Positions 18,814 to 62,280 of a stretch of DNA of 64,000 bases are shown piece by piece; position 1 is the first letter of the stretch; every line of letters starts with the position of its first letter. Below the pieces are notes generated by a model. That model was not told the origin of the DNA and did no database searches. It was given only the letters and a program-made list of their open reading frames with translations. The position numbers and the translations under genes were made by a program. This DNA comes from an uncultured Bacteroidales bacterium (lineage in GTDB: Bacteria; Bacteroidota; Bacteroidia; Bacteroidales; Paludibacteraceae): assembly GCA_900316005.1 (NCBI GenBank), contig ONBH01000001.1, forward strand, positions 1 through 64,000. The letters are read 5' to 3'.

Positions 18814-20043
18814 TTATAGTTTTCGTTTCATAAACCAGGTCTCATTGATAGCGGCATTGACGGTGAGTTTCAGCACATTCTCCTTCAGGTCGAGGAAGGT
18901 ATTGCGACGGGTAAACTCAATGGTCGCATTGAACATCGTAGCCGATGTGCGGAACGGAAAACCAATACCCATCGATACCGTAAAGTCCTTACCTTTCGTG
19001 TCAACCGAATAGGGGTCAACCATCGATGCGCCTACGCGCCAACGCATACGTTCGGCATAGTTACGCGCTATGGGATTATGGCGGTATTCAACACCCAGAG
19101 CGAACTTATTTCTATTGCGAAGAGCCTCTGTGCCGCCAAAGTAATTCACTTCGCTCCAGCGCGTCTGCGTATAATCAAAGGCTATAACAAGGCGTCTATC
19201 ATAGGTATAACTAACACCAACGCTCCATACCATCGGCAACTCAAAGCCTCGGTCGGTAACCAATACCGAGTCCAACGTATTGAGTTCGTACTGTACATAG
19301 GTATTCTTAAACGGCAGCTTGCTCTCGAATATGGCACCCAGCACGATATTATGCTTCTGCTTGAAGGTATGGAAAACCTGCAAACCGTAGCGGCCTCGCC
19401 AGGATGATACAGACATCGAGCGGTACATAAGACTCGACAGAAGTGAAGCATCCGTAAAGGTCAGTGCTGTGATGTTCTCCAGCGAACCGAACATATAGTA
19501 GAAGTTACCACCCACGGCTACCCAGTCGAATAGATTGAAACTCAATCCGCCATAGGCTTGTGCCACGTTACCTTCGCCATAGTACGATACGGTATAACTA
19601 TGTCCGCCCGCCGACCCATCCAAGGCAAAGTCATAACCCATGCACGAATAGGGCATTACGCCGGCTGAGAATGCAATATAGCGTTTCCATATGGGGAACT
19701 GCAGCATGAGGTATTCCAGGTTACCATTGGCCTTGTTCTTGCGTCCGTTCTTGTCACTATAGTTGGTCCACATCACACTGCCTGCCACATCCATCATAAA
19801 CGCCAGCGAATCACATCCCGTATAGGAAGCCGGCTGCGAAGGATTGATGGCAAGACGGCTGCGCATACCCGTACTGACGCCTCCCATTGCCCGGAAGGTG
19901 CCGGGGATATTGTCATTGAGTTCGCCGTATCCGAATCGAGAACTGGGCGATGAGGTGGCATTCTGTGCCGCCCCATACCCTACTCCGCTGAATACCAGCA
20001 GCAGACATACTATGATACGATATGTAGCGTGTCGGCTTGTCAT
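18814..20043 (-). CDS. Outer-membrane beta-barrel protein, FadL-like
   Basis: A 409-residue protein with a signal peptide ending at AAQ. Alternating hydrophobic/polar strands and many aromatic residues suggest a 12-14-stranded barrel. SSRFGYGELNDNIPGTFRAMGGVSTGMR near the N-terminus resembles the hatch start of FadL/OmpP1-like porins (NP...A...GG.S.A). The C-terminal strand ends NETWFMKRKL. It overlaps coaX by four bases (20040-20043). A transport or envelope-assembly role is inferred from context only. Confidence 0.8.
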   Translation of the reverse strand: MTSRHATYRIIVCLLLVFSGVGYGAAQNATSSPSSRFGYGELNDNIPGTFRAMGGVSTGMRSRLAINPSQPASYTGCDSLAFMMDVAGSVMWTNYSDKNGRKNKANGNLEYLMLQFPIWKRYIAFSAGVMPYSCMGYDFALDGSAGGHSYTVSYYGEGNVAQAYGGLSFNLFDWVAVGGNFYYMFGSLENITALTFTDASLLSSLMYRSMSVSSWRGRYGLQVFHTFKQKHNIVLGAIFESKLPFKNTYVQYELNTLDSVLVTDRGFELPMVWSVGVSYTYDRRLVIAFDYTQTRWSEVNYFGGTEALRNRNKFALGVEYRHNPIARNYAERMRWRVGASMVDPYSVDTKGKDFTVSMGIGFPFRTSATMFNATIEFTRRNTFLDLKENVLKLTVNAAINETWFMKRKL

Positions 20044-20774
20044 TTTTTGTTATATTCCAATATGCGGTTCAGACCGATGAGTACCAAGTTTCGCTCCATC
20101 CGCACAGGTGTTTGTACATTATTTATTATATAAGGTGCATTACCTCCGGTCAGTATTGTCTCAAAATGCGGGACTTTCTCGCTGACGGTACGCATGTACC
20201 CCTTCACTTCAAAAACTATGCCACGAATAACACCGGCGGCTATCGCATCACGCGTATTTTTGCCAAAGAGCGGTATCAATTCGTTCTCTTCCGTCTCCAC
20301 TTGTGGCAGTTTTTTGGTCATCTGACGTAGCACACTCAATCGCATCTTGATTCCCGGCGCAATGTTGCCGCCTACGAAATGACCGTCCGCGGTGAGGAAG
20401 TCATAGGTTATGGCCGAACCGGCATCGATAATGAGCAGGTTCTCGTCGGGCAGCAGGTAGTTAGCGCCCACAGCAGCTGCCAGACGGTCGTGACCGAGCG
20501 TAGCCGGAGAGTCATAGTCGTTCTGAATCGGAACGGGTGTCTCGTGGTCAAAGAGCACAAAACGCCGACTCAAGCGATTCAGCGTATTAACCATGCTGGA
20601 CTCCAGATTGACAACCGACGAGATGATGCTATCGCTGATAGGATATAGTCTGAAGAGCCTCTCCGCATCAGCCGATGAAAAGGACTTATAGACAAAGCTC
20701 TTCACCACCTTTCCCTCGGCATCAAACAGCGCCACCTTGGTTCTGGAATTCCCCTGATCAATACAGATATTCAC
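20040..20774 (-). CDS. coaX: Type III pantothenate kinase
   Basis: A 244-residue ASKHA-fold kinase for the first step of coenzyme A synthesis. N-terminal phosphate motif DQGNSRTK, LGHDRLAAAVGA, the DAGSAITYD motif with catalytic Asp, and PGIKMRLSVL are all present. CoaX-type enzymes are not feedback-inhibited by CoA. The start codon is GTG (20772-20774). A tandem heptamer array fills the 58-nt gap to the upstream ligase gene, so the array should be transcribed just before this start. Confidence 0.93.
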   Translation of the reverse strand: MNICIDQGNSRTKVALFDAEGKVVKSFVYKSFSSADAERLFRLYPISDSIISSVVNLESSMVNTLNRLSRRFVLFDHETPVPIQNDYDSPATLGHDRLAAAVGANYLLPDENLLIIDAGSAITYDFLTADGHFVGGNIAPGIKMRLSVLRQMTKKLPQVETEENELIPLFGKNTRDAIAAGVIRGIVFEVKGYMRTVSEKVPHFETILTGGNAPYIINNVQTPVRMERNLVLIGLNRILEYNKK

Positions 20775-20780
20775 GATCGC

Positions 20781-20831
20781 GGTTCTGGGTTATCGGTTCT
20801 GGGTTCTCGGTTCTCGGTTCTGGGTTATCGG
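20781..20831. repeat. Tandem heptamer array GGTTNNN
   Basis: Seven consecutive 7-nt units: GGTTCTG, GGTTATC, GGTTCTG, GGTTCTC, GGTTCTC, GGTTCTG, GGTTATC, then GG. Each unit keeps GGTT and varies in the last three bases. It starts one base from the stop codon of the acyl-CoA ligase gene (on the minus strand). The same word family occurs inside the 5'-nucleotidase gene at 61422-61449. Confidence 0.9.
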
Positions 20832-20832: not shown

Positions 20833-22524
20833 TTATCCTTGCGTATAGAGGAAACGCTTGATACTCTTCTTAGGCGTCTTCTCAAACTCATGGGGATAAA
20901 GTTTTATTTTGCTTACCTGTTCGTATGATGCGATTTGCTGGTTCAGCACCTTGCGGTTCTCCTCCATGAACGCCTCCAACTGCTCGTGCGAGAGATGGTT
21001 GGCATCTGCTGACTCAAAGTCGGGATAGACAAGTGCCACCAGTTGCTCATCCTGCTGGATAACGAGACTCTCCATGACATAAGGCATGTTATTGAGTTTT
21101 GCCTCAATCTCTTCGGGATAGATATTCTGTCCGGAAGCCCCTAAGAGCATGGTCTTGTTACGTCCTTTAATGAAGATATAACCGTCCTCATCTATCACGC
21201 CCAGGTCGCCCGTACGCAGCCAACCGTCTTTGGTGAAAGCCTGCTCGGTAGCCTCTTCGTTCTTGTAGTAGCCGTACATCGTGTTCTCGCCGCGTACAAG
21301 TATCTCACCTACTCCTTCATGGTTCGGATTATCGATCTTAGCTTCCATCAGCCCCTTCAGAGCCTGACCGCAGGAATACGAGCGATAGGCCATACCATTG
21401 GTGCCATACCGACTGTCATATGGTGTAAAGGAGATCAGCGGAGCGCACTCGGTCATACCGTAACCAACAGCTACCGGGAATTTAATCTTCGTCAGGAACG
21501 CTTCTACTTCAGCATTCAGCGGAGCACCACCGATGATGACCATCGAGAACTCGCCACCCAGGGCATCAATGAGCGATTGGCGTATCTTGTTCAGCACAAT
21601 CTTATCCAGATAGGGTACCTTTAGAACCCAACTAACGGGTGCTTTGGCTATCTGCGGAACGATTTGCTTGCGGTAAATCTTCTCCAAAACCAATGGTACG
21701 GAGAGAATCAGCGTCGGCTTGACTTCGGCGAATGCCTTCAGCAGAATCTTGGGTGCAGGTGTGCGGCCAATGAGGTACGTGTGGCCACCTACAGAGAGGG
21801 AGCCCAAGAAATCAATGGCGCAACCATATGCATGTGCCAATGGCAGGAATGCCACCTGACGGCAACCGCGGAAGATGAGTTTAGACTCGCGGGCATATTG
21901 TATATTACCGGCCAAGGCATTAGCGGGCGTTACAACACCCTTCGAGAAACCGGTCGTACCGCTGGTATAGTTAATGCTGGCTACAGCCGCGTTGTCGCGT
22001 TCGTCGTAGCGAACATCAGCTGCGGTAAAGCCATTCGGATATTTTGCCTTCATCGCTTCTCCGGCGGCTTCCCATGACATCAGGTCTTCGTCCAAACGTC
22101 CGGCTATCGTCTTGAAGTTCTGCAGCGACCATACGGCAGATATCTGCTCCATCTGTTCCAACTCCATGCCATCCCAAATAGCATCTGTTATAAAGAACAA
22201 TTTGGACTCAGAGTGATTGATGATATGAATAGCATCTTCAGCTTTGAAGTCTTGCAGAATGGGCACGATGATAGCGCCATATGTTACGGTAGCCAAATAG
22301 ACGGAACACCAATTAGCGGTATTCTTGCCCATCAGGCTAACTTTGTCTTCTTTTTGTAATCCCACGCGCTCGAACAGTACGTGCAGACGTGCTATCTGCT
22401 CCGCCAGCTGACCATAGGTAAAGGTTGTGGTGGTACCCCAGTCTGTCAAGGCCGGAAGTTCCCAGTTGTTACGGAACGAATTCTCGTATATCTTGACGAG
22501 ATTATCTTTTTCTTCTTTTAGCAT
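20833..22524 (-). CDS. AMP-dependent acyl-CoA/acyl-ACP ligase
   Basis: A 563-residue adenylate-forming ligase that activates a carboxylic acid, probably a long-chain fatty acid, via an acyl-AMP. Motifs: YTSGTTGFSKGV (P-loop A3), YGMTECAPL (A5), GWLRTGDLG (A7) and IKGRNKTMLLGASGQNIYPEEIE (A8). The C-terminal domain is complete. There is no signal peptide. Whether the acceptor is CoA or ACP cannot be decided from sequence; it sits in one operon with coaX (CoA synthesis) and fabG. It follows the 143-residue membrane protein gene by 10 nt. Confidence 0.92.
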   Translation of the reverse strand: MLKEEKDNLVKIYENSFRNNWELPALTDWGTTTTFTYGQLAEQIARLHVLFERVGLQKEDKVSLMGKNTANWCSVYLATVTYGAIIVPILQDFKAEDAIHIINHSESKLFFITDAIWDGMELEQMEQISAVWSLQNFKTIAGRLDEDLMSWEAAGEAMKAKYPNGFTAADVRYDERDNAAVASINYTSGTTGFSKGVVTPANALAGNIQYARESKLIFRGCRQVAFLPLAHAYGCAIDFLGSLSVGGHTYLIGRTPAPKILLKAFAEVKPTLILSVPLVLEKIYRKQIVPQIAKAPVSWVLKVPYLDKIVLNKIRQSLIDALGGEFSMVIIGGAPLNAEVEAFLTKIKFPVAVGYGMTECAPLISFTPYDSRYGTNGMAYRSYSCGQALKGLMEAKIDNPNHEGVGEILVRGENTMYGYYKNEEATEQAFTKDGWLRTGDLGVIDEDGYIFIKGRNKTMLLGASGQNIYPEEIEAKLNNMPYVMESLVIQQDEQLVALVYPDFESADANHLSHEQLEAFMEENRKVLNQQIASYEQVSKIKLYPHEFEKTPKKSIKRFLYTQG

Positions 22525-23051: not shown

Positions 23052-24497
23052 TCAATCTATACGTGCACCTGTCAGGGTGTACATCTTACCGTCACGAACG
23101 ATTACAATCTGACCATCATACATCATCTTCGCAGCACCATAATCTTCTTTTTTACCCATTACAGCTTGCACATTGACCACACCAAAGGGATTACTGCACC
23201 AATGAATTACTGATGCTCCGTAAGGCAGTTCGCTTACATCAAAGTAGATAAGTGCCTCGTATTCGGGCTTTACATAAACCGGGCGGGATGTAAAGAAATC
23301 CAGGTATTCATCCAGATACTCATCGTACATACCGTCGCGCCAAAGCGTACGCGCACTACCGTTTGCCTGCATATCATGGTAGAAATAGTAGGAATGGCGC
23401 TTGCCTTCCATTACTTGCCAGAGGCGATTGTTAGAGGATAGTTTGGTACTGCTCCAACCGATATAACTCTTCGACGCCGGATGATAAATCCGTACACTAT
23501 CACCCGCCTCGCTCCATAGGAACTGATACCGGTATTCATAGGGGATATAATCGGCATGCAGCCAAGCGGTACCATCCGCCGTGGTATCGACTTCTAACTC
23601 GTAGGCCAACACCTCATCCGTCTGAACGGCACCAACCATGACATAATCGGGCATACGTATCTCGGGGTGATCCGGCAAACTGTCCGTACGCTCTACGATG
23701 ATAACCTCGTGGTCGGTACGCGTGGTACATTGGGGTGTACGCTGATGAACATTGCCGTCGCTAAAGACAGCCCAGAGGCGGTCATCATGACGCGGATAAT
23801 AGATAGTTCCGGCAGCCATAAGAGCGGGCTCAGAGGTGGTATTCATCACTTCGGAACTACTCCACCCCTTGAATGACCAGTTCTCCTGCCCATCGGTCAG
23901 CATATCGCATGCGGGCAAGACGATGCCCGAGCCTATACCATCTTCGCACAACTCACGGGCTTCTAATTTTGTATCAGTAGGATATATCAGCCGAACGCAA
24001 TAAGGCTCCGGGGCGGCAAGTCTGTATCGTATGGTAACAGCCTCGATGTAGAGCGAGTTCTCCGTACCCTTTAGGCTCAGTTTTAGGGTCTGATTATATA
24101 GAATCGGCCAACTGCCTTCTTGCGTGTAAGCAACCGTCTCGGTAGAATACTGCCCCACCCAATCGGCCAGGGTACCGCTTTGTGTCACGCAGACGATGTT
24201 ATCTACGCTTACTGTCAAGGTGCCTGCTCCCCCGTTTTTATTAGAGTGCAGATAGACGGTTACTCCCGTAATAGTACAATTGGGCCACGCACCTATAGTC
24301 AGCACAGCCGTTTTGCCTTCCGTCACCTGCCCTTTGCTATGATTCTCGTTCAGAAACGTAGTCCAAAGGTCCTGAGGCACGTCACCGCTCATCTCAACGG
24401 CGTTATATGCCGTTATGGTAGCCGTCATTTCCTCTGCACAAAGGGTTGGCAACCACAACAAGACTAAACCCAGCAGAATAGCAACAACCTTCCTCAT
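23052..24497 (-). CDS. Secreted protein with RDGK-type C-terminal motif
   Basis: A 481-residue exported protein (signal peptide MRKVVAILLGLVLLWLPTLCA). The body is beta-rich, with a jelly-roll-like first part (TITAYNAVEMSGDVPQDLWTTF, GGAGTLTVSVDNIVC). The C-terminus reads MMYDGQIVIVRDGKMYTLTGARID. A similar ending (FVGGRLYIIRDGKVYDAAGQRVE) closes the 2191-residue surface protein at 35242, so this is a shared terminal domain, possibly a secretion or sorting signal. It overlaps fcl by four bases and so belongs to the gmd-fcl transcript. Function unknown. Confidence 0.82.
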   Translation of the reverse strand: MRKVVAILLGLVLLWLPTLCAEEMTATITAYNAVEMSGDVPQDLWTTFLNENHSKGQVTEGKTAVLTIGAWPNCTITGVTVYLHSNKNGGAGTLTVSVDNIVCVTQSGTLADWVGQYSTETVAYTQEGSWPILYNQTLKLSLKGTENSLYIEAVTIRYRLAAPEPYCVRLIYPTDTKLEARELCEDGIGSGIVLPACDMLTDGQENWSFKGWSSSEVMNTTSEPALMAAGTIYYPRHDDRLWAVFSDGNVHQRTPQCTTRTDHEVIIVERTDSLPDHPEIRMPDYVMVGAVQTDEVLAYELEVDTTADGTAWLHADYIPYEYRYQFLWSEAGDSVRIYHPASKSYIGWSSTKLSSNNRLWQVMEGKRHSYYFYHDMQANGSARTLWRDGMYDEYLDEYLDFFTSRPVYVKPEYEALIYFDVSELPYGASVIHWCSNPFGVVNVQAVMGKKEDYGAAKMMYDGQIVIVRDGKMYTLTGARID

Positions 24498-25435
24498 CGT
24501 TCTGCTCGCATGGGATTGGTTAGGAAGTCTTGGTATGCCAATCGGATGCCGTCTTCCAGTTCTGTCTTATAGGTCCAACCGAGCGCGGTAGCCTTAGACA
24601 CATCCAGCAACTTGCGCGGCGTACCGTTCGGGCGCGTTGTATCCCATAGGATGCTTCCTTCGTATCCTACCACACGCGCCACCAGTTCGGTCAACTGCTT
24701 GATAGTCAGCTCCTTGCCCGTACCGGCATTGACGGTCTCGTTGCCCGAGTAATTATTCATGAGGAATACGCACAGGTTCGCCAGGTCGTCCACATACAGG
24801 AACTCGCGCAGCGGGCTACCGTCTCCCCAACAGGTGACCGACGCTGCGCCCGACACCTTGGCTTCGTGGAAACGGCGGATGAGTGCCGGCAGCACGTGGC
24901 TATGCTCGGGGTGGTAGTTATCGTTTGGACCATACAGATTGGTCGGCATGACAGAGATATAATCCGTGCCATACTGGCGATTAAGGAACTCGCAGTATTT
25001 CAGGCCGCTTATCTTGGCAAGCGCGTAAGCCTCGTTGGTCTTCTCCAACTCACCGGTCAGTAGGCAACTCTCCGTCATCGGTTGGGGGGCCAAACGCGGG
25101 TAGATACACGAACTGCCTAAGAACTCCAACTTCTTACAGCCATTCTTCCAAGCAGCGTGTATTACATTCATCTCCAGAATCATATTGTCGTACATGAAGT
25201 CCGCCAAGGCATTCTGGTTGGCTACAATACCGCCTACTTTGGCAGCAGCCAGAAAAACATACTCGGGTTTCTCTGCGGCAAAGAAAGCCTCCACGGCATC
25301 CTGACGCGTGAGGTCTAACTCAGCGTGCGTGCGGGTGATGATATGTGTATAGCCCTGCCGCTCCAGTTCGCGCACAATAGCGCTACCGACCATTCCGCGG
25401 TGCCCCGCTACATATATTTTAGAATCCAGTTTCAT
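24494..25435 (-). CDS. fcl: GDP-L-fucose synthase
   Basis: A 313-residue epimerase/reductase that converts GDP-4-keto-6-deoxymannose to GDP-L-fucose. NADP motif GHRGMVGSAI, SSCIYP and catalytic Tyr/Lys in NEAYALAKISG are intact. The start is at ATG 25435 (MKLDSKIYVAGHRG). A 32-residue upstream extension is possible in frame but is encoded entirely by a tandem word array and is surely not protein. It pairs with gmd upstream. GDP-fucose feeds capsule and surface glycoprotein fucosylation. Confidence 0.95.
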   Translation of the reverse strand: MKLDSKIYVAGHRGMVGSAIVRELERQGYTHIITRTHAELDLTRQDAVEAFFAAEKPEYVFLAAAKVGGIVANQNALADFMYDNMILEMNVIHAAWKNGCKKLEFLGSSCIYPRLAPQPMTESCLLTGELEKTNEAYALAKISGLKYCEFLNRQYGTDYISVMPTNLYGPNDNYHPEHSHVLPALIRRFHEAKVSGAASVTCWGDGSPLREFLYVDDLANLCVFLMNNYSGNETVNAGTGKELTIKQLTELVARVVGYEGSILWDTTRPNGTPRKLLDVSKATALGWTYKTELEDGIRLAYQDFLTNPMRAER

Positions 25436-25529
25436 ATAATCGTCAAATCGTAAATCTTCATTAAATCGTAAATAAATCGTCAAATCGTCAATCGTAAATC
25501 GTAAATCGTAAATCGTCAAATCGTAAATC
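25436..25529. repeat. Tandem 7/8-mer array GATTTAC/GATTTGAC
   Basis: Read in the direction of transcription, about twelve units such as GATTTAC, GATTTGAC and GATTGAC follow one another between gmd and fcl. The TGA stop of gmd supplies the first GA of the array, and the array ends at the fcl start codon, so it is the entire intercistronic spacer. Confidence 0.9.
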
Positions 25530-26616
25530 ATTTAACGATTCCCTTCTCGAGATACTCAGCCAGGTTGACACGGCTGTGCGATACGATCACTTCTTCGCGC
25601 ACCTTGCGCATATCCGATTCTACCATCAGTTGCACAAGTTGCTCAAAGGTCGTCTTGGCGGGGTTCCAACCCAACTCGCGTTTGGCCTTTGACGGGTCAC
25701 CCCACAGATTCACTACATCGGTCGGGCGGTAGAAGTCCGGACTAACGGCCACAACGACCTTACCGGTATTCGTATCTATACCTTTCTCGTTGACGCCCTC
25801 GCCCTCCCAGCGCAGGGTAATACCCGCGTGTTGGAACGCCAGGGTTGCAAACTCGCGTACGGAGTGTTGCACACCGGTAGCGATGACAAAGTCCTCGGGT
25901 GTATCGTGCTGTAGAATAAGCCACATACACTCTACATAGTCTTTGGCATACCCCCAATCGCGCAGCGAATCAAGGTTTCCTAAGTACAGGCAGTCCTGCT
26001 TGCCTTGTGCGATACGGGCAGCGGCTAAGGTTATCTTGCGGGTCACAAAGGTCTCGCCACGCCGTTCGCTCTCGTGATTGAACAATATGCCCGAGCAGCA
26101 GAACATGTTGTATGCCTCGCGGTATTCCTTCACAATCCAGTAGCCGTACAGCTTGGCAACCGCATACGGGCTATAGGGGTGGAAGGGTGTTGTCTCGCTC
26201 TGCGGAACTTCCTCCACCTTGCCGTACAGCTCCGATGTAGAAGCCTGGTAGATACGGCAGGTCTTCTCCAAATGGTTGGTACGAACGGCTTCCAGTACGC
26301 GCAGAACACCTACGGCATCAACGTCAGCCGTAAACTCCGGCGAGTCGAAACTGACCTGCACATGACTTTGTGCCGCCAGGTTGTATATCTCATCGGGCTG
26401 TACAGCGCCCACCAGCTTGACCAGCGACATCGAGTCGCTCATATCTGCATAATGCAAATGGAAATGCGGCGTGCCTTCCAGATGGGCGATACGCTCGCGA
26501 AAATCTACAGAACTGCGACGGATGATACCATGTACTTCGTATCCTTTTTCCAATAGAAACTCAGCTAAGTAACTGCCATCTTGGCCCGTAATACCGGTGA
26601 TAAGTGCTTTCTTCAT
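25528..26616 (-). CDS. gmd: GDP-mannose 4,6-dehydratase
   Basis: A 362-residue SDR enzyme that makes GDP-4-keto-6-deoxymannose, the first committed step to GDP-fucose. Motifs: [14 protein letters not shown], catalytic Thr region STSELYG and YxxxK in [13 protein letters not shown], plus [15 protein letters not shown]. It is full length and leads the operon gmd-fcl-secreted protein. Confidence 0.96.
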
Positions 26617-28976: not shown

Positions 28977-30113
28977 TTACGCTTCTACTATCGACTTGAT
29001 GTAAGCTCTGCGCCGCTTGTGTTGCTTGCGGTTGAAGTACTCAAAGTTAGCCTGGTTCTTTATGTTGGTCTCCAGGATGGATGTGGTCTCTACCTCCTTG
29101 ATTCCGTACTGCTGGAAATAGGGAATCATATCGGTAAAGAGTAGCGTATTGACTCCCTTGTTCTGGTAGTCAGGTCTTACGCCGATGAGCAGCAGATCAA
29201 AATGGTCCATCTTCTTGGCCCTGAGTGCCTTCAGCAGGTGATACCAGCCGAACGGGAATAGTTTGCCGCCGCATTTGCGTAGCGCTACAGATATATCGGG
29301 CATACCGACACCTACAGCCACACATTCGTCTTTCTCGTTGGCGACGATGGTGACGAAGTCGAAGTTGAGCAGCGGGAAGTAGATGTCGCGGTAATACTCT
29401 TTCTGACGTTGCGTCATGGGCTGGAAGTTATAGAGTTTCTGGTATGCTTCATCCAGTACATCCATAAACTGCAGGCCGTACTTGGCACTCAGTTCCTTGG
29501 CACTATGCACCTTGTCCACATGCACATGGCTGCGCTCGGCGGCTATCTTGGCCAGGCGTGCCATGCGTTCCGGTATCTCAAACGGAGCCAATATCTGAAA
29601 CTCAATCCAGTCCACTTCTTTCTCCAGCCCGTAGGCTACCATATGATCTACATAGTACGGATAGTTATAGAGCGAAGCGACAGGTGCCAGGTACTCGTAG
29701 CCCTCGATCAGCAAACCCTCATGGTCAAAATCGGTAAAGCCAACCGGGCCATTCATCTTAGTCAGTCCGCGTGCTCTACCCCACTCGGCCACGGCATCCA
29801 GCAATGCCCGCGACACTTCTTTATCGTCAATAAAATCCATCCAGCCAAAGCGCACATTCTTCACCCCCCAACGCTCGTTGGCCTTGTCGTTAACCAACGC
29901 AGCGATGCGGCCAACAGGTTTTCCATCGCGTTTCGCGATGAACAGCTCATAGTCGCAGAACTCCAACGCAGGGTTTTTCTCGCGGTCAAATATCGCCAAC
30001 TCGTCGTTGTACAGAGGCGGACAGTAGTTCTCACAACCTTTATATAGATCATTGGCAAAATCGATAAAGCGATGCAAATCGCGACGGCTCTTAACGGTAG
30101 TAATTTCAATCAT
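28977..30113 (-). CDS. GNAT-fold acetyltransferase-like protein
   Basis: A 378-residue protein with an N-terminal acyl-transferase-like domain (FIAKRDGKPVGRIAALVND) and a second GNAT-like half near the C-terminus (LLLIGVRPDYQNKGVNTLLFTDMIPYFQQ, with the acetyl-CoA loop Q-x-x-G). Proteins of this size and pattern are widespread in Bacteroidota as uncharacterised GNAT proteins. The substrate is unknown. It is cytoplasmic and separated from the Wzi gene by a tandem word array. Confidence 0.82.
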   Translation of the reverse strand: MIEITTVKSRRDLHRFIDFANDLYKGCENYCPPLYNDELAIFDREKNPALEFCDYELFIAKRDGKPVGRIAALVNDKANERWGVKNVRFGWMDFIDDKEVSRALLDAVAEWGRARGLTKMNGPVGFTDFDHEGLLIEGYEYLAPVASLYNYPYYVDHMVAYGLEKEVDWIEFQILAPFEIPERMARLAKIAAERSHVHVDKVHSAKELSAKYGLQFMDVLDEAYQKLYNFQPMTQRQKEYYRDIYFPLLNFDFVTIVANEKDECVAVGVGMPDISVALRKCGGKLFPFGWYHLLKALRAKKMDHFDLLLIGVRPDYQNKGVNTLLFTDMIPYFQQYGIKEVETTSILETNIKNQANFEYFNRKQHKRRRAYIKSIVEA

Positions 30114-30138: not shown

Positions 30139-30188
30139 TAAATCTTAAATTTTAAATCTTAAATCTTAAATCTAAAATTTCAATTTTA
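30139..30188. repeat. Tandem heptamer array GATTTAA
   Basis: In the transcribed (minus) direction, units GATTTAA, GATTTAA, GATTTAA, AATTTAA and GATTTAG follow the TAA stop of the Wzi gene, which overlaps the array edge. It lies in the spacer before the GNAT gene. Confidence 0.88.
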
Positions 30189-32000: not shown

Positions 32001-32036
32001 CCAATCACCCATAACCGATAACCTTTCAACTTTCAC

Positions 32037-32893: not shown

Positions 32894-33007
32894 TGTTGTT
32901 TTTGTTGTTTTTGTTGTTTTTGTTGTTTTCGTTATTGTCGTAATGTCTTCATGACCTTCGTCATATCGTCATACCGTCCTAACGTCAATTTTAAATTTTA
33001 AATCTTA
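32894..33007. repeat. Composite word array: nonamer, octamer and heptamer
   Basis: Three arrays abut. At 32894-32929 TGTTGTTTT is repeated four times (9-mer). At about 32930-32978 come octamer-like words around CGTCATAT and CGTCATAC. At 32980-33007 the transcribed strand reads GATTTAA, GATTTAA, AATTTAA, AATTGAC. The last block contains the TAA stop of the NagK-like gene. Confidence 0.85.
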
Positions 33008-33898
33008 AATCTTCTCTGTAAGTCCGTCCATCGGCTCCTGCATAATTTTCCCCACCTTGAAGCCGCCTTCAGTCATCACCTCTTCCAGCACGTCGCGGTA
33101 GTACCATGCTATTGACCCCACGAACGATACCGTTAGTTCCTCTGTTCCCGTACGATACTGCGCCACTACGCGGTCGCGGAAGGCGGCAAAATGCCGCTTC
33201 AGCAGGGCTTCGATTGCCTCATCGCCTCGGTGTGCGGCGCAGAACTTACTCATCTCCGCCAGAAAGCGGTTCGCCATCGGCTGCCGATAGACTCGTTCGA
33301 TGACATGCGCTTGCGCACGCATCAATCCATCATTCGGGCCGTCAGGGCGGCTCAATCCATCATTATCTAAGGTCCACTCTGCAAATTGCTTTTTCAGTTC
33401 CTCACCCAGCAGCCCTTTCAGCACATCGCCCACCAAGGTGCGACCCAATACAGCTCCGCTACCTTCATCGCCCAAGATATATCCGAGCGAGGGAACATTG
33501 CGTACGATCTTCTCGCCATCCCATAGGCAGCTGTTGCTACCCGTTCCGAGTATGCAAGCCACGCCTCTCTCGCGGCCCAACACGCCTATCGCGGCGCCTA
33601 CCATATCCGAGTGTACTTCGGCCTCAGCCTTGCGGAACACTTCCTCTAACAAAGCCTTCATCACCACGCATTTCTCGGGCGTACAGCCGGCGCCGTAGAA
33701 ATAGATATGTTCGATTGGTCCGACCCACAGGTATTTCGCCAATTGCGGCAGCAGTCCATCCGTCAGGATATGACGAATGGCATCTTCGCTTTGATGGAAG
33801 GGGTTAATGCCTTCGGTCATGAAATCACTTTTCTGTCCGCTTCTGGTCTTTAGGCACCAATGGGTCTTCGTGGACCCCGAATCAGCTATCAGTATCAT
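33005..33898 (-). CDS. N-acetylglucosamine kinase-like ATPase (BadF/BadG family)
   Basis: A 297-residue ASKHA-fold sugar kinase. Phosphate 1 motif DSGSTKTHW, ACILGTGSNSCLW (phosphate 2), and SLGYILGDEGSGAVLGR, which is typical of the BadF/BadG/BcrA/BcrD N-acetylglucosamine kinase group. It probably phosphorylates free amino sugars from peptidoglycan or host glycans; specificity cannot be read directly. Its final residues EKI and the TAA come from a tandem heptamer array. It starts 46 nt after the toxin gene with no clear promoter of its own. Confidence 0.87.
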   Translation of the reverse strand: MILIADSGSTKTHWCLKTRSGQKSDFMTEGINPFHQSEDAIRHILTDGLLPQLAKYLWVGPIEHIYFYGAGCTPEKCVVMKALLEEVFRKAEAEVHSDMVGAAIGVLGRERGVACILGTGSNSCLWDGEKIVRNVPSLGYILGDEGSGAVLGRTLVGDVLKGLLGEELKKQFAEWTLDNDGLSRPDGPNDGLMRAQAHVIERVYRQPMANRFLAEMSKFCAAHRGDEAIEALLKRHFAAFRDRVVAQYRTGTEELTVSFVGSIAWYYRDVLEEVMTEGGFKVGKIMQEPMDGLTEKI

Positions 33899-35241: not shown

Positions 35242-38200
35242 TTACTCTACTCGCTGTCCAGCAGCATCATATACCTTGCCATCACGGATGATATAGAGCC
35301 GTCCACCGACGAATACCTTGCGGACTTCTTCAGTTGACAATTGATAGTTGACAGTTGACATTTGTTCGATGCCGGTCGGTGCATCTTGAATCGGTCCGAA
35401 TTCAAGAGCAAAGCGACCTTCGTACGTGCCGGCCGTCAGGGTGACGGTATAGGGCATCAGGCCGAGGTTCGTGCGCGTACCGTACGCGTTATCAATAAGG
35501 TACACATCCTCGCCGTTCGTGCCCTCGGGCATCGACAGGGTATATTCGCCACCAGTTACCACCTTCACGCCCACGGGCACAAGAGTTGTCTGCACGGGCT
35601 TCGGCATGCTGTTACCGGCCACCTCTACCGTATCGGCAGTCACCGTCCAGATATTCCCGCGACCGGCGTTGTATTCCTTCGACAAGTCGTAGTTGAACTC
35701 GAATCGGTTCGAGACAGCCGTCTCATCCGTCAGACGAACAAAGGTCTGGTCTTCCGTCCGTTCCTCGCCCTGCAGCACAAGCTTATACTCTCTATCCGGC
35801 GTCTCAGCCAGACGGGCAGCTACGGAAGAAGGAGCTTTGTTGACATTTGCCCACGTCAACGTAGTGCTACTATATTGCACCAGATACGAATGCATGGCTT
35901 TAAATGATTGCGGAGAAGTTTTTCGAACATCTAAACTATTATCTGCCGTATTCCATTCGTAAAAATACATCAATCCTTCCGGGTTCCATAATTCTTGTCC
36001 GCCAAGAGTCGGATCTTCGGTTTCTACGTCATGATTTACATTTGCATAACTCGGTGCTCCGATACAATGCCAGTAGCTATCTTTAATTCGGCGGTCACCA
36101 TCCGGCGTTGCACGATTGATGGTACATTGGTAGCCGACTTGGTCAATAGGAACCTCTTTGCTGTCAGCCGGTTCAATATTGTTTACATCAGATTTTGACG
36201 GGAAGTATAGATAAGCTTCGGTCATACCGTTATCCCATACCAGTGACTCTCCGCCTAATTCATCCAAATCCAGAGCAAGGATATAACCCTCATTAGCATT
36301 CATGATGAATCCTTGTCCGTCTGTACCACCATGTTCACGCATAGCAGGCGTTACGAATTTCCAGTTTGGTTCACTATCAGCCCAGAAGCCATTCGTAGCT
36401 CGCCCCTTACCATCGTAGTATTCGATAATCCAATGCGTGCCATAAGTGCCCAGGCCAAATGCGTCACTCAGTCTGACATCAAACGGGAACGAAATCCAAT
36501 AGAGGTCACGTGCATAACGCGATACGCCATTATTCAATATGAACGATTTGGTAAACTTCATCACGCCATAGACTTTTTTAACGGCAGACAAATTATGCTC
36601 ATTACTTGCAAACGTAATCTGACGTGCATCCCCCTGTTCTTGACGAATAATCATCACATCGGCATTAATGGCCTTATCAGGAGAATCACCAGATGCCGGA
36701 GCCATCCAAGCAGACAATAACTGATTCGTCTTGAAGTCATACGAAACATGCAAAGTATTATAACCGGTATTTTTAATGTCACCACCCATTATCTCAACGG
36801 TATTTGCATCAGTAAGGTCTGAGCCATAGGATGTAACATGACCAACTAAATCTTGAATCGTTCCATTATATTTAGCAGACAGACGCACGCGGGCTTTCTC
36901 ACGAGCTTTGATATCCAACCCGAAGGTAAAGTTACTTTGATTCTCCAATGTAGCTTTATTATTTGTAAACGCAGCCCCATCACCATCAGTATTATCGTGA
37001 ATCATATAGATAGGTCCCGATAAGGTATTACCTTCCATTACCAGATGGTCATCACCCGATACAGCCAGATACGTACGTTTGAGTTCGTTGGTCGTACTAT
37101 TGTAGCTAAAGCGAACATGAGCCGGCGAAGGCAAGGTTTGGAATTTACTTTCTCCACCACCAATAATAGCATCATGCTCCAAAGTATCACTTATAGCAAT
37201 ATTATACTCGTTCGCAATAACACACTTCACATTGGTAGCGCTTCCAGGATAATTGCTACGAGCCTTTTCCACCCAATGACAGAATGCATAATCGTAGGTC
37301 TTGGGATCACCACTATCAAAGGTAATTGAATTCTTTTCCATGATGTTGGCTTTGTAGGCAGTCCATCCTCCGGAAGCGATATCAGTTTTGATATAGAATT
37401 CGCCGTCATACAACTTGATATTACTTAGCGTATTATCCGTTCCGGGAGATGCAATATTGAATTGATATACACCATTGCCATCATCAAAATAATTGGTTCC
37501 GGTATTTATAGTTAATCCCGCGGATTGATCTGTCCAAGTCAATGGATCAATAGCAGTACATTTTTCCAATGCCAATGTTGGCGTACTCGTTGTATTGATA
37601 TACATGGACACAATTGCATTGGTCGAACCATTCTTAATAACGTCGGAATAGGTGATATAAGTAGAATCTTCCGTATTTGCTTTATTGCGTCCATTATAGG
37701 TATGTTTTAAACGATAGTCATTAAGAGCAACTGGATAGTTCACACGAATCTTCATAGCATCTCCGCTTTGGTCAATTGTGATAACATAGATACCATGAAT
37801 AGTCTCATCAATATTGAATCTCGGCTTACCTGAATTGAATTCAGACAAAACAAGATTATCATCACAGTTTGACGTTGTGATTGTCGTGCCGGATTCTCCA
37901 CCATTCGCTGTAATATATTGTGTTCCGTAAGCACTCGTAATTCTAAATCTATTGTGATCTACATCCTTGTTATTATCAATACGAAGCGAATACTGGATTG
38001 TATTTTCATCAATTATTACAAACTGATTCGAACCAGTACCATTATCTGCCGGATTCTCGTAGCCACTACCATTAAAACGCATAATATAATATCCTGCAGG
38101 TGAACCGGCTTCACCATAGTTCATCCAGTAACCATTACTAAAATATGTTGTACGGACTGTCGTTCCGCTGGATAAGTGATGAGGTACAAACATATTGAGA

Positions 38201-43891: not shown

Positions 43892-44137
43892 CGACGAGAC
43901 CTCGAGATATCGAGACTTCGAGATAACGAGGCTTCGAGGCTTCGAGGCATCGAGACATCGAGACTTCGAGACATCGAGGCATCAAGATATCGAGGCATCA
44001 AGATATCGAGGCTTCGAGATGACGAGGCTTCGAGATGACGAGGCTTCGAGATGACGAGGCTTCGAGATATCGAGGCTTCGAGATATCGAGGCTTCGAGAT
44101 GACGAGGCTTCGAGACATCGAGATGACAGACTGACGA
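43892..44137. repeat. Large tandem octamer array CGAGRNNN
   Basis: About 30 consecutive 8-nt units such as CTTCGAGA, TGACGAGG, TATCGAGG, CATCGAGA. CGAG stays fixed and the other positions vary among few choices. It is the largest array in the window and lies before the rel promoter. On the minus strand all three frames stay open through it (peptides rich in SRSLDISKPR), a consequence of the words, not evidence of coding. Confidence 0.92.
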
Positions 44138-48627: not shown

Positions 48628-50137
48628 CAAGACCCGCCGTACGGCCGAAGTAATCAAAGTAGGACCGAACGAATTGGGGAAACTGCCGCCACAGGTTCCG
48701 GAACTGGAGGAATCGGTTCTGGGTGCCCTGATGATTGAGCAGAACGCCTATGCCGTCGTAGCAGACTTGCTGCGACCGTCGTCGTTTTACAAAGATCAGC
48801 ACCGCTATATCTACGAAGCCATCCAATCGTTAGCTTCACAAGAGAAGCCCATCGATATCCTGACGGTAGCCGAAAGCCTGAAACGTCTGGGCAAGTTGGA
48901 AACAGTGGGCGGCGTGACATTCTTGAGTGACCTGACACGCAAGGTGGCCTCGACGGCTCACCTGTATTTCCACGCGCAGATTATTGCACAGAAAGCTACG
49001 GCGCGCGACTTGATTGCCATGGCAGCCCATATTGAGGGACAAGCCTATGACGAGACGCAGGATGTGGAAGACCTGATGCAGGAAGCCGAATCGACCATCT
49101 TCCAAATCAGCCAGCAGAACCAGAAACGTGACGTCACACAGATAGACCCCGTGATCTCGGAGGCATTTGAACGCATGAGAAAAGCCGCCAAGAACGAGGG
49201 TAATATATCGGGTATCCCCAGCGGATTCCATGAGTTGGACAAGATAACCAGCGGCTGGCAGAAGTCAGACCTGATCATCATAGCAGCCCGCCCGGCGATG
49301 GGTAAGACGGCTTTCGTGCTGTCGATGGCCAAGAATATAGCGGTCAACTACAAGCGACCGGTGGCCATGTTCTCGCTGGAAATGTCAAACGTGCAGTTGG
49401 TGAACCGTCTGATTATGAACGTCTGCGAGATAGAAGGCGACAAGATCAAGACCGGTAAGTTCAACAGCGACGAGCGTCAGCGCCTGGAAAATAAGGTCAA
49501 TGACCTATACGGCGCACCGATATATGTAGATGATACCCCTGCCCTATCGGTATTTGAGTTGCGCAGCAAAGCCCGCAAACTGGTACGCGAGAAGAAAGTA
49601 GAACTCATCATCATCGACTACCTGCAGCTGATGAATGCCAGCGGAATGACATTTGGAAGCCGTGAGCAGGAAGTAAGTATCATATCACGCAACCTGAAGG
49701 CACTGGCCAAGGAGTTGGATATACCTATCATTGCCCTCTCGCAGCTGAACCGCTCGGTAGAACAACGCGGCGGAACAGGCATAGACGGCAAGAAACCTCA
49801 ACTGAGCGACCTGCGTGAGTCGGGCGCCATTGAGCAGGATGCGGATATGGTGTGCTTCATCCACCGCCCGGAATACTACCGCATTACCACCGAAGAAAAG
49901 ACCAGTAAAGACCTGCGCGGACTGGGTCAGATTATCGTGGCAAAGCATCGTAATGGTGCGACAGATGAGATTTGGCTGCGCTTCCGCTCCAAGTATGCCA
50001 AGTTCCAAAACGAGGATGAGGCCTATGATGAGGTGTACGAACCCCTACCTACCAGGGATGAGGTAACCATTACCAGCAGGATTGGCAATCCGGACGGAGC
50101 ACGACTGGATGACCCGAACGAAGGCAGGCCGTTTTAG
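48605..50137 (+). CDS. dnaB: Replicative DNA helicase DnaB
   Basis: A 510-residue hexameric helicase that unwinds DNA at the replication fork. The N-terminal DnaG-binding domain (PPQVPELEESVLGALMIEQNAY) is followed by the RecA-like domain with Walker A ARPAMGKTAF, Walker B VELIIIDYLQLM, and QLNRSVEQR / SDLRESGAIEQDADMVCFIHR. No intein is present. It is coupled to meaB by a 23-nt overlap. The TAG stop is the first three bases of a tandem heptamer array. Confidence 0.96.
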   Translation: MPNTRTNSKTRRTAEVIKVGPNELGKLPPQVPELEESVLGALMIEQNAYAVVADLLRPSSFYKDQHRYIYEAIQSLASQEKPIDILTVAESLKRLGKLETVGGVTFLSDLTRKVASTAHLYFHAQIIAQKATARDLIAMAAHIEGQAYDETQDVEDLMQEAESTIFQISQQNQKRDVTQIDPVISEAFERMRKAAKNEGNISGIPSGFHELDKITSGWQKSDLIIIAARPAMGKTAFVLSMAKNIAVNYKRPVAMFSLEMSNVQLVNRLIMNVCEIEGDKIKTGKFNSDERQRLENKVNDLYGAPIYVDDTPALSVFELRSKARKLVREKKVELIIIDYLQLMNASGMTFGSREQEVSIISRNLKALAKELDIPIIALSQLNRSVEQRGGTGIDGKKPQLSDLRESGAIEQDADMVCFIHRPEYYRITTEEKTSKDLRGLGQIIVAKHRNGATDEIWLRFRSKYAKFQNEDEAYDEVYEPLPTRDEVTITSRIGNPDGARLDDPNEGRPF

Positions 50138-50190
50138 TTGATAGTTGATAGTTGATAGTTGATATTTTTTGATAATTGAAAATTGAAAAT
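50135..50190. repeat. Tandem heptamer array TAGTTGA after dnaB
   Basis: TAGTTGA four times (50135-50162), where the first TAG is the dnaB stop, then TATTTTTTGA, TAATTGA, AAATTGA and AAATTAT. It fills the spacer to asnS. Confidence 0.92.
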
Positions 50191-50195
50191 TATAG

Positions 50196-56848: not shown

Positions 56849-56874
56849 GAACACCTAATACACCCTATTTTCAC

Positions 56875-58935
56875 ATGAGAAACACTCATTTACGTCTGGC
56901 AGCCGTCGCTGTCCTGTTTGCAAGTATCCTTACCGCTTGTACCATGAAAACTACCTCAACATCCCCTAAGAGCGTCAGCGATGCTGTTGTTCTTCAAACC
57001 CTCGAAGCCGTACGTGCAGAAGCACCTGAGTTAGACCAAGAACGCCTGGAACGCGGCATCCGTCAGGCCGCCAATTTATGGCGCGAAGAGGACGGAACAG
57101 AAGCCGAGTTTAAGGCATTTGCTATAGAGCATACCGCCAAGACAACCGCGGAACGCGATGCCCTATTCTTCAGCCTGAGCCGTATTATGGAGCGACTCAG
57201 CGAGAGTGCCGATATGCTAACCGTGGAATTACTGAAGCCCACGCAACTTACCAACGCAGGTGAACCGACCGTAGCGGACTGGATTATGTCGGGTTACAGC
57301 TCGAACGCTCACCTCCGCGATGACCTCTTTGCCAACAAATTAGCCTTTCTTACCATTCTCAACTTCCCCTTCTACACCCTGGATGAGAAGAACACCATTG
57401 GCCGCGAGTGGACACGTCAACAATGGGCAGAAGCCCGTCTGGGTGACGTCTTCACGGAGCGTATTCCCGCCAAGGAGGTAGCTGCCCTGGCTCAGGCTTA
57501 TGCTGATGCCGAGAACTATATAGCCGACTACAATATCTATATGGGTCGTCTGCGCACGGAAGACGGACGCCAGCTATTTCCCGACGGCATGAAACTACTC
57601 AGCCATTGGAACCTGCGCGACGAACTCAAAGCCGACTATAGCGAGCCGCTAACCGAAGATGCCGAAGGACGCCTGGTCAACGAAAAGCAGGAGATGATTT
57701 ACCAGGTCATGCAACGTATCATCCGTCAGGAGATTCCCGCTTGCGTCATCAATAACGAAGGCCCCATCTGGTATCCCTATAGTAATCGCGTAGAGGAAGC
57801 CAACGGGCAAACAGCTACACGCGAGGCGGATGTACGATACCAGAAGATTCTGGACACCTTCCACGCTATGCTGGAAGTAGATAAGTACTGCCCCACGCGT
57901 CCGACCGGTATTATCCGTAACTTTGAGGGCGATATAGAGATTCCTGCCGATGAGGTAGAACGCCTCTTTATCCAACTAATCGGTTCGGAACAGGTCAAGA
58001 CGGTAGCTGCTATTATCAAAGAACGTCTCGGGCGCGAGTTACGCCCCTACGATATATGGTACGACGGTTTCAAATCACGTAGTACCATGAATGAGGACGA
58101 CCTTACCGCACAGACACGCTCGCTCTACCCCACCCCCGAGGCTTACCAGAGGCAGATACATATCATGCTGCAGAAACTCGGTTTTGACAAGGAGAGTTCG
58201 GAATATATCGCCCGTCGTATCGTGGTGGAACCCGCCCGCGGTTCCGGTCACGCGTGGCCGTGTGTTGGTCACAACGAGCCGACCCGCCTACGTACGCGTA
58301 TCGGTAGCCAAGGTATGGACTACAAGGGTTACAACATCGCCGTGCATGAAATGGGACATAATGTAGAAGAGGTGGTCAGCCTCTACATGATGGACTACTA
58401 TATGCTGCATGGTATCCCGAATACGGGCTTCACGGAGACGAGTGCCTTCATCTTCCAACAACGCGACCTGCAATTACTGGGCTACGGCAAGCAAGAGATG
58501 AACCGCGAAGCGACGTTGGATGTATTCTGGGGTATGTATGAGATTATGGGTGTGAGCCTGGTTGATATGCGCATGTGGCGTTGGCTCTATGCACACCCGG
58601 AAGCTACGGCAGCAGAGCTACGCGAGGCAACTACACAAATTGCAGCCGAGCTATGGAACGAATACTACCGTCCGGTATTAGGTGAGGACAACTGCGTACT
58701 CCAAGCCATCTATTCGCATATGGTCAACAGCCCGATGTACCTGCCTAACTACCCCATTGGACATATTGTACAATATCAGTTGGAAGAACAACTGACGGGT
58801 ACGAGCGGCAGAGAATGGGCTGATAAATACCTGCGCTGGTACCGCTTAGGCCGTCTGACGCCCCAAGAATGGATGCGTCAGGCTGTGAATGGCGAACTGT
58901 CGGTAGAGCCAGTCTTGAGAGCAATTGATAATTGA
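56875..58935 (+). CDS. Zinc metallopeptidase lipoprotein (gluzincin, HEMGH)
   Basis: A 686-residue lipoprotein (lipobox LTAC) with zinc site His491-Glu-x-x-His495 (VHEMGHNVEEV) and a likely third ligand Glu521 in GFTETSAF. The HExxH...E pattern and mostly helical composition suggest a gluzincin related to M3/M32/M49-type oligopeptidases; I cannot fix the family. It should act in the periplasm or at the surface. The start is at ATG 56875; a longer frame reads back into cvpA. The last codons Ile-Asp-Asn and the TGA are part of a heptamer array, so the natural C-terminus may have been replaced. Confidence 0.82.
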   Translation: MRNTHLRLAAVAVLFASILTACTMKTTSTSPKSVSDAVVLQTLEAVRAEAPELDQERLERGIRQAANLWREEDGTEAEFKAFAIEHTAKTTAERDALFFSLSRIMERLSESADMLTVELLKPTQLTNAGEPTVADWIMSGYSSNAHLRDDLFANKLAFLTILNFPFYTLDEKNTIGREWTRQQWAEARLGDVFTERIPAKEVAALAQAYADAENYIADYNIYMGRLRTEDGRQLFPDGMKLLSHWNLRDELKADYSEPLTEDAEGRLVNEKQEMIYQVMQRIIRQEIPACVINNEGPIWYPYSNRVEEANGQTATREADVRYQKILDTFHAMLEVDKYCPTRPTGIIRNFEGDIEIPADEVERLFIQLIGSEQVKTVAAIIKERLGRELRPYDIWYDGFKSRSTMNEDDLTAQTRSLYPTPEAYQRQIHIMLQKLGFDKESSEYIARRIVVEPARGSGHAWPCVGHNEPTRLRTRIGSQGMDYKGYNIAVHEMGHNVEEVVSLYMMDYYMLHGIPNTGFTETSAFIFQQRDLQLLGYGKQEMNREATLDVFWGMYEIMGVSLVDMRMWRWLYAHPEATAAELREATTQIAAELWNEYYRPVLGEDNCVLQAIYSHMVNSPMYLPNYPIGHIVQYQLEEQLTGTSGREWADKYLRWYRLGRLTPQEWMRQAVNGELSVEPVLRAIDN

Positions 58936-58947
58936 TAATTGATATTT
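58924..58947. repeat. Tandem heptamer array ATTGATA over a stop codon
   Basis: ATTGATA, ATTGATA, ATTGATA, then TTT. It encodes the last residues and the stop (TGA 58933-58935) of the metallopeptidase and runs up to just before the next gene. Confidence 0.88.
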
Positions 58948-60255: not shown

Positions 60256-61807
60256 TAGAGCTTTCGCGCACAGTATCGCCTATCTGCTTCAGGTAGCGCG
60301 TCAGGACTTCTGTGTCCTTAATCGGCTCATAGTCAATAGGCTCCGCAAAACGGAAGATACCACTCGCGCCACAATTGACAAGGGTGTAGTTTAGTCCCGA
60401 TAAGGTATAAACAGCCTCATCATCTATCGGCGCCCAAGTGCCATCCGGAAGTTCAATCTCCACTTTCACAACCCTGCGCGTGGCACCAATGGTGGCAAAG
60501 AAGCCATTCTCATCGAAGGAAACGGAGCTACTAATACGAGGGTTGATGGTATAACGCAACCCGCTAAAGATATGAAAGTCGCCATTCTCTACAGGCCAAG
60601 TGGCCACAGAGACCTCGAGGGCGTCACGCAACTGACGGCCGGTCATCTGAACCGAAGCCAAGGAGTTATTAAAGGGCAGAACTGCCATGACTTCCCCTAA
60701 CGTGATGTCCCCCGTGGGAATCGCCGCACGAATACTTCCGCCATGGATGCACCCAAGCTGCGTACCCCCCGCCCAACGCATCGCGTCCGCCAAGAGACAC
60801 GAGATTTCGGTCTCGGAGTTACGCACCAGACGGTTGCCCTTCTCATCGTAGTCGCGCAGATTGATTTCTGTGTAACCAACCTTCACAGCTATTTCTTCCT
60901 CAATTTGGCGTTGGATGGTATTGATAACCTGTTCGACACGGTCAGCACGGGGGATATATTTAGCATCCGAAGATACCGAGGGTACGAGTTCTACGGTTAT
61001 TCCGCCATCTGCAGCAATGGTCAGGCGACCTATATTGACGAATTTCGAGCCTGTTGAGGCCAGTATCAAGGTATCGCCATTGGCATCGGGCAGACGTTCG
61101 TTGAGGATACTATGCGCGTGGCCATCAAGGATAACATCTATGCCGTGCGTACCCTTTACCAAGTCAAGTGAGGACAAGGGATAGGTATTATCGCCCAGAT
61201 GCGAGAGGACAATAACATAGTCCGCACCCTCTTGACGTACTTTATCCACAGCAGCCTGCACCAATGAGATGGTTTCGTCCATATGGAACGAATAGCACAC
61301 CTCGCCCTGTTCGTTGAGGAAATAGGTAGGAGTGGAACTATTGAACGTGGTAGGTGTTGTTACGCCCACATACGCTACCTTTATCGGTCCGTAGCGACGT
61401 ATGTCGTAAGCGGGGTATATCGGTTCGGGGTTATCGGTTATCGGTTCGCGGCTAAAATTGCAGCAGAGGACTTTGGCCTTCAGCTTGCGGTTTAGTTCCA
61501 TCATCCGCGGCACGGAATAGTCAAACTCGTGGTTGCCGAGCGTCACGTAGTCGTATGGCACGGCGTTCATGATATCCACTATATACTGTCCCCGAGAAAT
61601 AGAGCCCACCACATCGCCCTGCAGGAAATCGCCGGCACTCACAACCGTCACATAGGGGGTGCTGAGTTTGGCTAAATCTTTTAGCGAAGCGATATGCGCG
61701 TAGCCCTCAACAGCACAATGCGGGTCGTTATCAAACAGGATCACGATATCCTTGCGGCTACAAGCAGCCAAAAGGAACAAGAAGCACAGGAGTAGCGTTT
61801 TTTTCAT
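60215..61807 (-). CDS. Metallophosphatase/5'-nucleotidase lipoprotein
   Basis: A 530-residue UshA-type enzyme that dephosphorylates nucleotides outside the cytoplasm. Lipobox LLAAC. Calcineurin-like domain: VILFDNDPHCAVEG (D-x-H variant), SAGDFLQGD, TLGNHEFDYS, VLSHLGDN and DGHAHS. The C-terminal 5'-nucleotidase domain starts near residue 330 (NSETEISCLLADAMRWAGG, GGSIRAAIPTGDITLGEVMAVLPFNN). The stretch REPITDNPEPI is encoded by an in-frame heptamer array. ATG 61807 is chosen over a GTG three codons upstream. It overlaps the EEP gene tail to tail with no terminator between. Confidence 0.9.
   Translation of the reverse strand: MKKTLLLCFLFLLAACSRKDIVILFDNDPHCAVEGYAHIASLKDLAKLSTPYVTVVSAGDFLQGDVVGSISRGQYIVDIMNAVPYDYVTLGNHEFDYSVPRMMELNRKLKAKVLCCNFSREPITDNPEPIYPAYDIRRYGPIKVAYVGVTTPTTFNSSTPTYFLNEQGEVCYSFHMDETISLVQAAVDKVRQEGADYVIVLSHLGDNTYPLSSLDLVKGTHGIDVILDGHAHSILNERLPDANGDTLILASTGSKFVNIGRLTIAADGGITVELVPSVSSDAKYIPRADRVEQVINTIQRQIEEEIAVKVGYTEINLRDYDEKGNRLVRNSETEISCLLADAMRWAGGTQLGCIHGGSIRAAIPTGDITLGEVMAVLPFNNSLASVQMTGRQLRDALEVSVATWPVENGDFHIFSGLRYTINPRISSSVSFDENGFFATIGATRRVVKVEIELPDGTWAPIDDEAVYTLSGLNYTLVNCGASGIFRFAEPIDYEPIKDTEVLTRYLKQIGDTVRESSISGRPRFVIDASK
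61422..61449. repeat. Heptamer array GGTTNNN inside coding sequence
   Basis: GGTTCGG, GGTTATC, GGTTATC, GGTTCGC (plus strand), then GG. It lies within the nucleotidase gene and encodes REPITDNPEP in frame on the minus strand. Same word family as the intergenic array at 20781-20831. Confidence 0.87.
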
Positions 61808-61836
61808 TTCCAACACAATTTTTATGATTTAACCTG

Positions 61837-62118: not shown

Positions 62119-62208
62119 GTGCAACAGTAGTCGAGTGTTTTCTGTTCTCGTCTCTTTTTGCAAAAAATGACTACTTTTGTATACAAAAAGGATATTTTTT
62201 CGAAAAAA

Positions 62209-62240: not shown

Positions 62241-62280
62241 CAGGTTAATTCTACCATCGGTAGAAATCCACATCAAGATG

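Follow-up and report, generated by a model that had tools for sequence, protein, structure and literature searches.

Gene spacers in the genome of an uncultured Paludibacteraceae bacterium carry many short tandem arrays with a dominant period of 7 nt, which tend to read in the direction of the genes, often begin exactly at the stop that ends the preceding gene, and differ between related species in both word and number of units. We tentatively propose, at slightly less than an even chance, that these arrays arise by tandem duplication seeded at stop codons and are then rewritten in concert and copied, while selection clears them from coding sequence and promoters. The window (the whole 64,000-nt stretch analysed) belongs to a genome of 2.27 Mb and 98% completeness, in which it is part of contig C16. 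The nearest named relatives by asnS were Paludibacteraceae/Bacteroidales metagenome-assembled genomes from red deer, goat and cattle, and the host is an uncultured gut or rumen bacterium. Counts within this genome were made on a 464 kb sample (the window plus 400 kb) with ~205 gene spacers, the genes being called with a custom script and not with a standard caller. For counts between genomes, a single script was applied to all samples, this genome (G000) being represented by 196 spacers; all comparisons were between species, with one genome per species.

A period-7 array was present in 59 of the ~205 spacers of the 464 kb sample, relative to a mean of 0.1 in shuffled spacers. The first-pass annotation of the window had set such a genome-wide excess beforehand as support for its proposal of 7-nt word arrays between genes. 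All eight sites that it cited were present, and when the spacer of each was shuffled 1000 times with dinucleotides preserved, the best period-7 score of the site exceeded those of the shuffles (p ≤ 0.001 in every case). Its claim of a fixed 7-nt period stood as regards dominance but not exclusiveness, as periods 8 and 11 occurred in 11 spacers each (0.3 and 0.1 in shuffles). Spacer autocorrelation was maximal at lag 7 (0.323, relative to ~0.27-0.28 at most other lags), followed by lags 14, 21 and 28, and the coding sequence of this sample, which contained 18 period-7 arrays in 385 kb, showed no peak at any of these lags. Metagenome assemblies make up most of the genomes used and compared here, so that the arrays might be thought an assembly artefact, or a product of chance in AT-rich spacers. 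However, the remaining periods from 4 to 13 were found in only 0-4 spacers each, arrays occurred in independent assemblies, and two were identical between sister species. We consider this explanation scarcely credible, and the shuffles and orthologues already refute it.

In the between-genome counts, period-7 arrays were found in 56/196 spacers of G000, in 40/194 of the closest species compared (G191) and in 23/235 of another congener, G102. Other congeners had 0-5 such spacers in small samples, with period 11 instead in G065 and G113. Named Prevotella, Bacteroides and Parabacteroides together yielded 7/115 spacers, and a broad set of other Bacteroidales 1/227. Triplets of the commonest word, TTGAYAR, were present in 34/61 congeners, with matches per genome ranging from none to several hundred, and were patchily distributed over 21/119 genera of the order; the reversed word is a rotation of itself, so backward reading is useless as a control for these triplet counts. 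Among viral contigs, a few TAGTTGA arrays were seen (12 contigs).

Table 1. Arrays in the window, and examples of the embedded hairpin in sampled contigs.
Feature	Position	Strand	Detection	Context
GGTTNNN (sense of genes: AACCCAG/AACCGAG)	20780..20831	-	TRF + shuffles	Flanked by AMP-binding enzyme gene (20833-22524, -) and type III pantothenate kinase (20040-20774, -)
AATCGTA/AATCGTC (gene sense GATTTAC/GATTTGAC), mixed 7-/8-nt spacing	25438..25529	-	TRF + shuffles	Junction of genes 24494-25531 and 25528-26616; straddles called gene end
RATTTAA	30139..30188	-	TRF + shuffles	Spacer between genes 30186-32036 and 28977-30113
RATTTAA	32987..33013	-	TRF + shuffles	End of gene 33005-33898; adjoined by 8-nt array (32958-32986) and 9-nt array (32894-32933)
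CAGTTGA	35331..35364	+	TRF	Within 2191-aa ORF 35242-41817 (-), near ORF end
AATTTAA	46176..46209	+	TRF + shuffles	Crosses stop codon of RelA/SpoT-like gene 44341-46182
(TAGTTGA)4	50135..50164	+	TRF + shuffles	First TAG is stop codon of dnaB (48605-50137)
TTGATAA/TTGAAAA, second array	50169..50191	+		Reaches up to asnS start at 50196; junction compared in 34 congeneric loci
RATTTAA	51605..51646	+	TRF + shuffles	Between asnS (50196-51593) and gene 51659-54937
(AATTGAT)3	58923..58944	+	TRF + shuffles	End of gene 56788-58935
TATCGGT, weak	61418..61446	no strand	TRF	Within called gene 60215-61816
TTCTTATCTCGGC/CGGCTAAAGCCGTACGATAG hairpin	C31 54656, 63965, 64639; C16 127736; C19a 6128 (sample coordinates)			Examples in sampled contigs L006-L025

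Within the window, TRF independently detected the cited arrays and added those at 35331 and 61418 (Table 1). The array at 20781 is among the weaker ones (80% matches), and its word, GGTTNNN, is a minor one genome-wide. Arrays of 8-, 9- and 11-nt units were present as well; a spacer of ~2 kb that holds such arrays also contains a 16-nt tandem repeat (TCGAGATATCGAGGCT, 13.8 copies) at 43902-44122. At 62275-62424, 57-nt repeats built of AAGAAGAAAAGCT-like words lie near the end of a small ORF (61980-62303).

The words had been described as unrelated, which we found not to be so: most belong to a few families, mainly TTGAYAR (equivalent to TARTTGA), RATTTAA and GTTGAGW, with TARTTGA and RATTTAA dominant. 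Among TTGANAN units (146 in G000 and 63 in G191), T1, T2, G3, A4 and A6 were constant at 97-100%, and the free positions were the same two in both species, position 5 (T, C or A) and position 7 (R, less often T), which in G000 varied by 19% and 45%, respectively; as these arrays were chosen by the core itself, the contrast between core and free positions is inflated. Runs of at least three TTGANAN units had a mode of four in both species, with some reaching 16, and in G191 exactly four units made up 17 of the 33 runs of two or more. The last unit of most arrays ended in T, adjacent units were hardly more similar than distant units of the same array, and, since none of 7, 8 and 11 is divisible by three, most words put a stop codon into every frame.

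The position and direction of the arrays were tied to the ends of genes. TTGAYAR arrays have the stop codon of the preceding gene as their starting point and run the same way as that gene; in the window, the first base of the arrays at 46176, 50135 and 58923 lay in or before the upstream stop codon. Several genes had the form coding sequence, TAR, TTGATAR, with the repeat absent upstream of the stop. In stop-adjacent arrays, the match of each base to that one period downstream was 0.93 right after the stop, 0.74 within it, 0.48 one codon before it and ~0.3 further upstream. Arrays lay within 3 nt of a stop codon in 25/77 and 23/31 cases, and within 3 nt of a start codon in 9/77 and 8/31. In co-directional spacers, the ratio of sense to antisense TTGAYAR was 23:1 and 13:1, and this direction follows the gene rather than the contig, as a single contig has arrays on each of its strands. 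Of the arrays within 6 nt of a stop, 62/73 had stops in every frame when read in sense (17 in antisense), compared with 47/89 of those more than 15 nt away (34 in antisense); gene calling increases this bias, because an array that abuts a gene end and lacks in-frame stops is absorbed into the called gene. The excess of three-frame stops is thus concentrated near the stop codon, and direction bias and anchoring go together, a pattern that would follow if the seed included the stop codon. Selection for stop codons as the sole cause was rejected, given that the sense excess largely disappeared away from the stop, which fits seeding. The first-pass annotation had noted neither the anchoring on stop codons, nor the bias toward gene direction, nor the constant core and its two free positions.

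The direction bias at both ratios, together with the fixed core and its two shared free positions, the peak at four units and the recurrent last unit, would also be expected of a selected element acting at the RNA level, in the stretch of a polycistronic mRNA that separates one stop from the following start, with the core as the contact for a protein or ribosome and about four units as the working length. In agreement with this, promoters were found in 2/30 array spacers of G191 relative to 31/121 of its other spacers, suggesting that the arrays lie inside operons, and the state of the array was clustered on the asnS tree (5 changes, relative to 11.5 in shuffles). However, few arrays end close to a start codon, arrays also occur in convergent spacers that have no downstream start on that strand (6/15 and 7/16), and at orthologous junctions of conserved genes the word was replaced by another. 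RNA structure was no scarcer than in other spacers: an explanation of the arrays as low-structure spacers was discarded after minimum free energy z-scores (relative to mononucleotide shuffles) showed no difference from those of other spacers (p = 0.73 and 0.17). Likewise, an RRM RNA-binding protein as the common factor was discarded when the genome gave no PF00076 match while positive controls were detected. We therefore regard an RNA-level element of this kind as possible, if somewhat unlikely.

The intergenic position of the arrays, and the resemblance of TTGAYA to a -35 box, might suggest promoter or terminator elements. However, the promoter of the organism, TTTG-N18-21-TAnnTTTG, is a motif separate from the arrays, and the promoter reading of TTGAYA was rejected: this look-alike falls on the strand opposite the true -33 region, and promoters were no more frequent in array spacers than in others. 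A role of this type is most improbable. The spacers of G000 and G191 also contain a strong promoter motif, TTTGCATATGTCAAAAAAAAGCAGTACCTTTG, an extended form of the Bacteroidetes TTTG/TAnnTTTG consensus.

Variation of the arrays at orthologous spacers, which the first-pass annotation had named, for strains, as further support, was observed between species. At junctions of conserved genes in G000 and G191, RATTTAA was paired with an 8-nt CCGTTATA-like array (as in the spacer at 30139..30188), GTTGAGW with TTGAYAR, and TTGAYAR with GTGAAAG. The dnaB-asnS junction contained a period-7 array in 18 of 34 congeneric loci, nearly all starting from the stop and in many words; two of these census rows (L035 and L056) are identical and probably represent one species. 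One clade included a lone TAATTGA in L055, degenerate units in L030 and a complete array in L035. Sister species differed in word in two cases (L031 and L043; L044 and L051), and in a third (L040 and L042) the difference was one 11-nt unit. Downstream of asnS, many congeners (L027-L058) have a conserved ATTAACCATAAAAACACTAACAAACAATCGTATG stretch before the next gene; it is missing in the window, where an array occupies this spacer (Table 1).

A closer pair, G102 and G103 (95.5% identity over 90 kb and 62 junctions), are species and not strains and gave small numbers: two of six arrays were identical and four differed or were absent from one species. In the NNGCTGA units of this pair the GCTGA core was kept and both NN bases were altered together, and one 9-nt repeat had gained one unit. 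Separately, a spacer of G102 (C15:18409-18524, sample coordinates) has a 95-nt insertion relative to G103 that is bracketed by copies of a short direct repeat, ATTTTTAAG, and has a GGCTC/GAGCC inverted repeat and GGGGTTA words ~11 nt apart. Among related species, then, the place of an array was kept while its word was rewritten, and a fast, largely word-independent process therefore shapes gene joints. This combination might alternatively reflect a word-tolerant intercistronic element, in which selection would maintain, between the genes of an operon, a period-7 run that is anchored on the stop and about four units long (~31 nt, stop included) while the word drifts in concert, so that form and not sequence is conserved. 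We think this unlikely; if true, such a run might, for example, keep a ribosome that is terminating apart from one that is initiating, in bacteria where Shine-Dalgarno sequences are hardly used.

Arrays also appear to have been dispersed. A hairpin of ~40 nt, TTCTTATCTCGGC..AAGCC..CGGCTAAAGCCGTACGATAG, was found inside TTGAYAR or GTTGAG arrays at ~10 places in the 464 kb sample (examples in Table 1), always in a single orientation relative to the array, and many pairs of spacers shared non-periodic matches of 90-235 nt, suggesting that arrays are also copied together with their surroundings. These observations, along with the four-unit block and its recurrent end, are what would be expected of a mobile element of the REP/BIME or MITE type, dispersed over the genome with heptamer arrays as its cargo and gene ends as its insertion sites. 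A precedent is BrickBuilt of Porphyromonas gingivalis, a MITE with a tandem-repeat body of 23-nt units, a leader and a tail with inverted-repeat ends, present in 19 copies (PMC4596501). However, most arrays lacked common flanks, and TTGANAN arrays, unlike BrickBuilt, had no common terminal inverted repeats or shared ends. Many words and three periods were in use, and intermediates in unit number were seen at one junction. The genome does contain one gene of the Y1-transposase family (L278:946-1995, -, 349 aa), and a REP-type transposase was rejected as the source because no link between this single gene and the arrays was seen. Such a mobile element is, in our estimation, distinctly unlikely.

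The explanation that we favor, stop-seeded tandem duplication, would make the arrays short heptamer microsatellites at gene junctions, born by duplication of mostly 7 nt, and sometimes 8 or 11, in a stretch beginning at the stop codon of the upstream gene. A duplication there may be tolerated, as the original stop would be unmoved and most words would carry stops in three frames. Arrays would then grow or shrink by whole units, undergo concerted rewriting of their word and be copied between sites, sometimes with an embedded hairpin, and selection would clear them from coding sequence and promoters. Replication slippage probably supplies the duplications and recombination between arrays may spread the words, in which case no dedicated binding factor would be needed. 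In support of this explanation are the period-7 excess in spacers, the edge of the arrays at the stop codon, the three-frame stops near it, the whole-unit relations and differing words at the single dnaB-asnS junction, the differences between G102 and G103, and the hairpin copied along with arrays. Slippage alone, however, would not give independent sites one shared vocabulary across spacers and species, and it does not explain the fixed TTGANAN core, the four-unit peak or the recurrent last unit. Recent slippage should also leave neighboring units alike, which they hardly are, and the two arrays identical in species at 95.5% identity also count against this explanation. It is these features of core, run length, last unit and neighboring units that make the best case for an RNA-level or a dispersed element.

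The STRR sequences of filamentous cyanobacteria consist of tandem heptamer units at many intergenic places. The likeness to these that had been drawn for our arrays is a fair one, since tandem heptamers here also occupy many intergenic loci; it is a likeness of form, and the words here are mostly AT-rich. The closest known case is the TAACTGA direct repeats described from marine Beggiatoaceae, cyanobacteria and five Bacteroidetes, including Paludibacter propionicigenes (MacGregor 2015, PMC4679880), and the earlier statement that no description existed in Bacteroidales was therefore too strong. Those repeats are patchily distributed, mostly of 2-6 units, intergenic, in gene direction and with three-frame stops; they show 7-nt indels between related Cyanothece strains, and a role at the RNA level, bound by a protein or the ribosome, was proposed for them (PMC4679880). 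Our arrays resemble them in being intergenic, sense to genes and few in coding sequence, and in the four-unit mode of TTGANAN, though some runs here are far longer. TARTTGA is one or two bases from TAACTGA, the exact triplet of which was absent from our genome and present in 1/61 congeners. In contrast, most TAACTGA sets end within a few nucleotides of a start codon (PMC4679880), whereas the arrays here are anchored on the upstream stop, comprise several words that change in concert at orthologous junctions, and have companion 8- and 11-nt arrays.

Among long simple sequence repeats of 5-11 nt, heptanucleotides are dominant, with slippage as the proposed cause (Mrazek 2007, via PMC4679880), and they are cited there as outnumbering other long simple repeats in most genomes. 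Our arrays likewise have units of 5-11 nt and run beyond chance; stop anchoring and a vocabulary shared across species set them apart from such repeats as PMC4679880 cites them. BrickBuilt, another intergenic tandem-repeat body in a Bacteroidales genome, is a more distant parallel than TAACTGA. Searches of the open-access literature yielded no description of such arrays from this genus, nor of anchoring on stops or of orthologous junctions at which the word had changed in concert. New here are the stop codon anchoring of TTGAYAR arrays and the differences in word at one orthologous junction between sister species.

Scattered bacteria have long been known to carry heptamer repeats. The stop codon anchor offers a simple, testable account of the direction and position of the arrays that requires no regulator. 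With ~180 congeneric species, dense arrays and changes of word between sisters, the birth, growth, rewriting and loss of such arrays can be traced on a tree.
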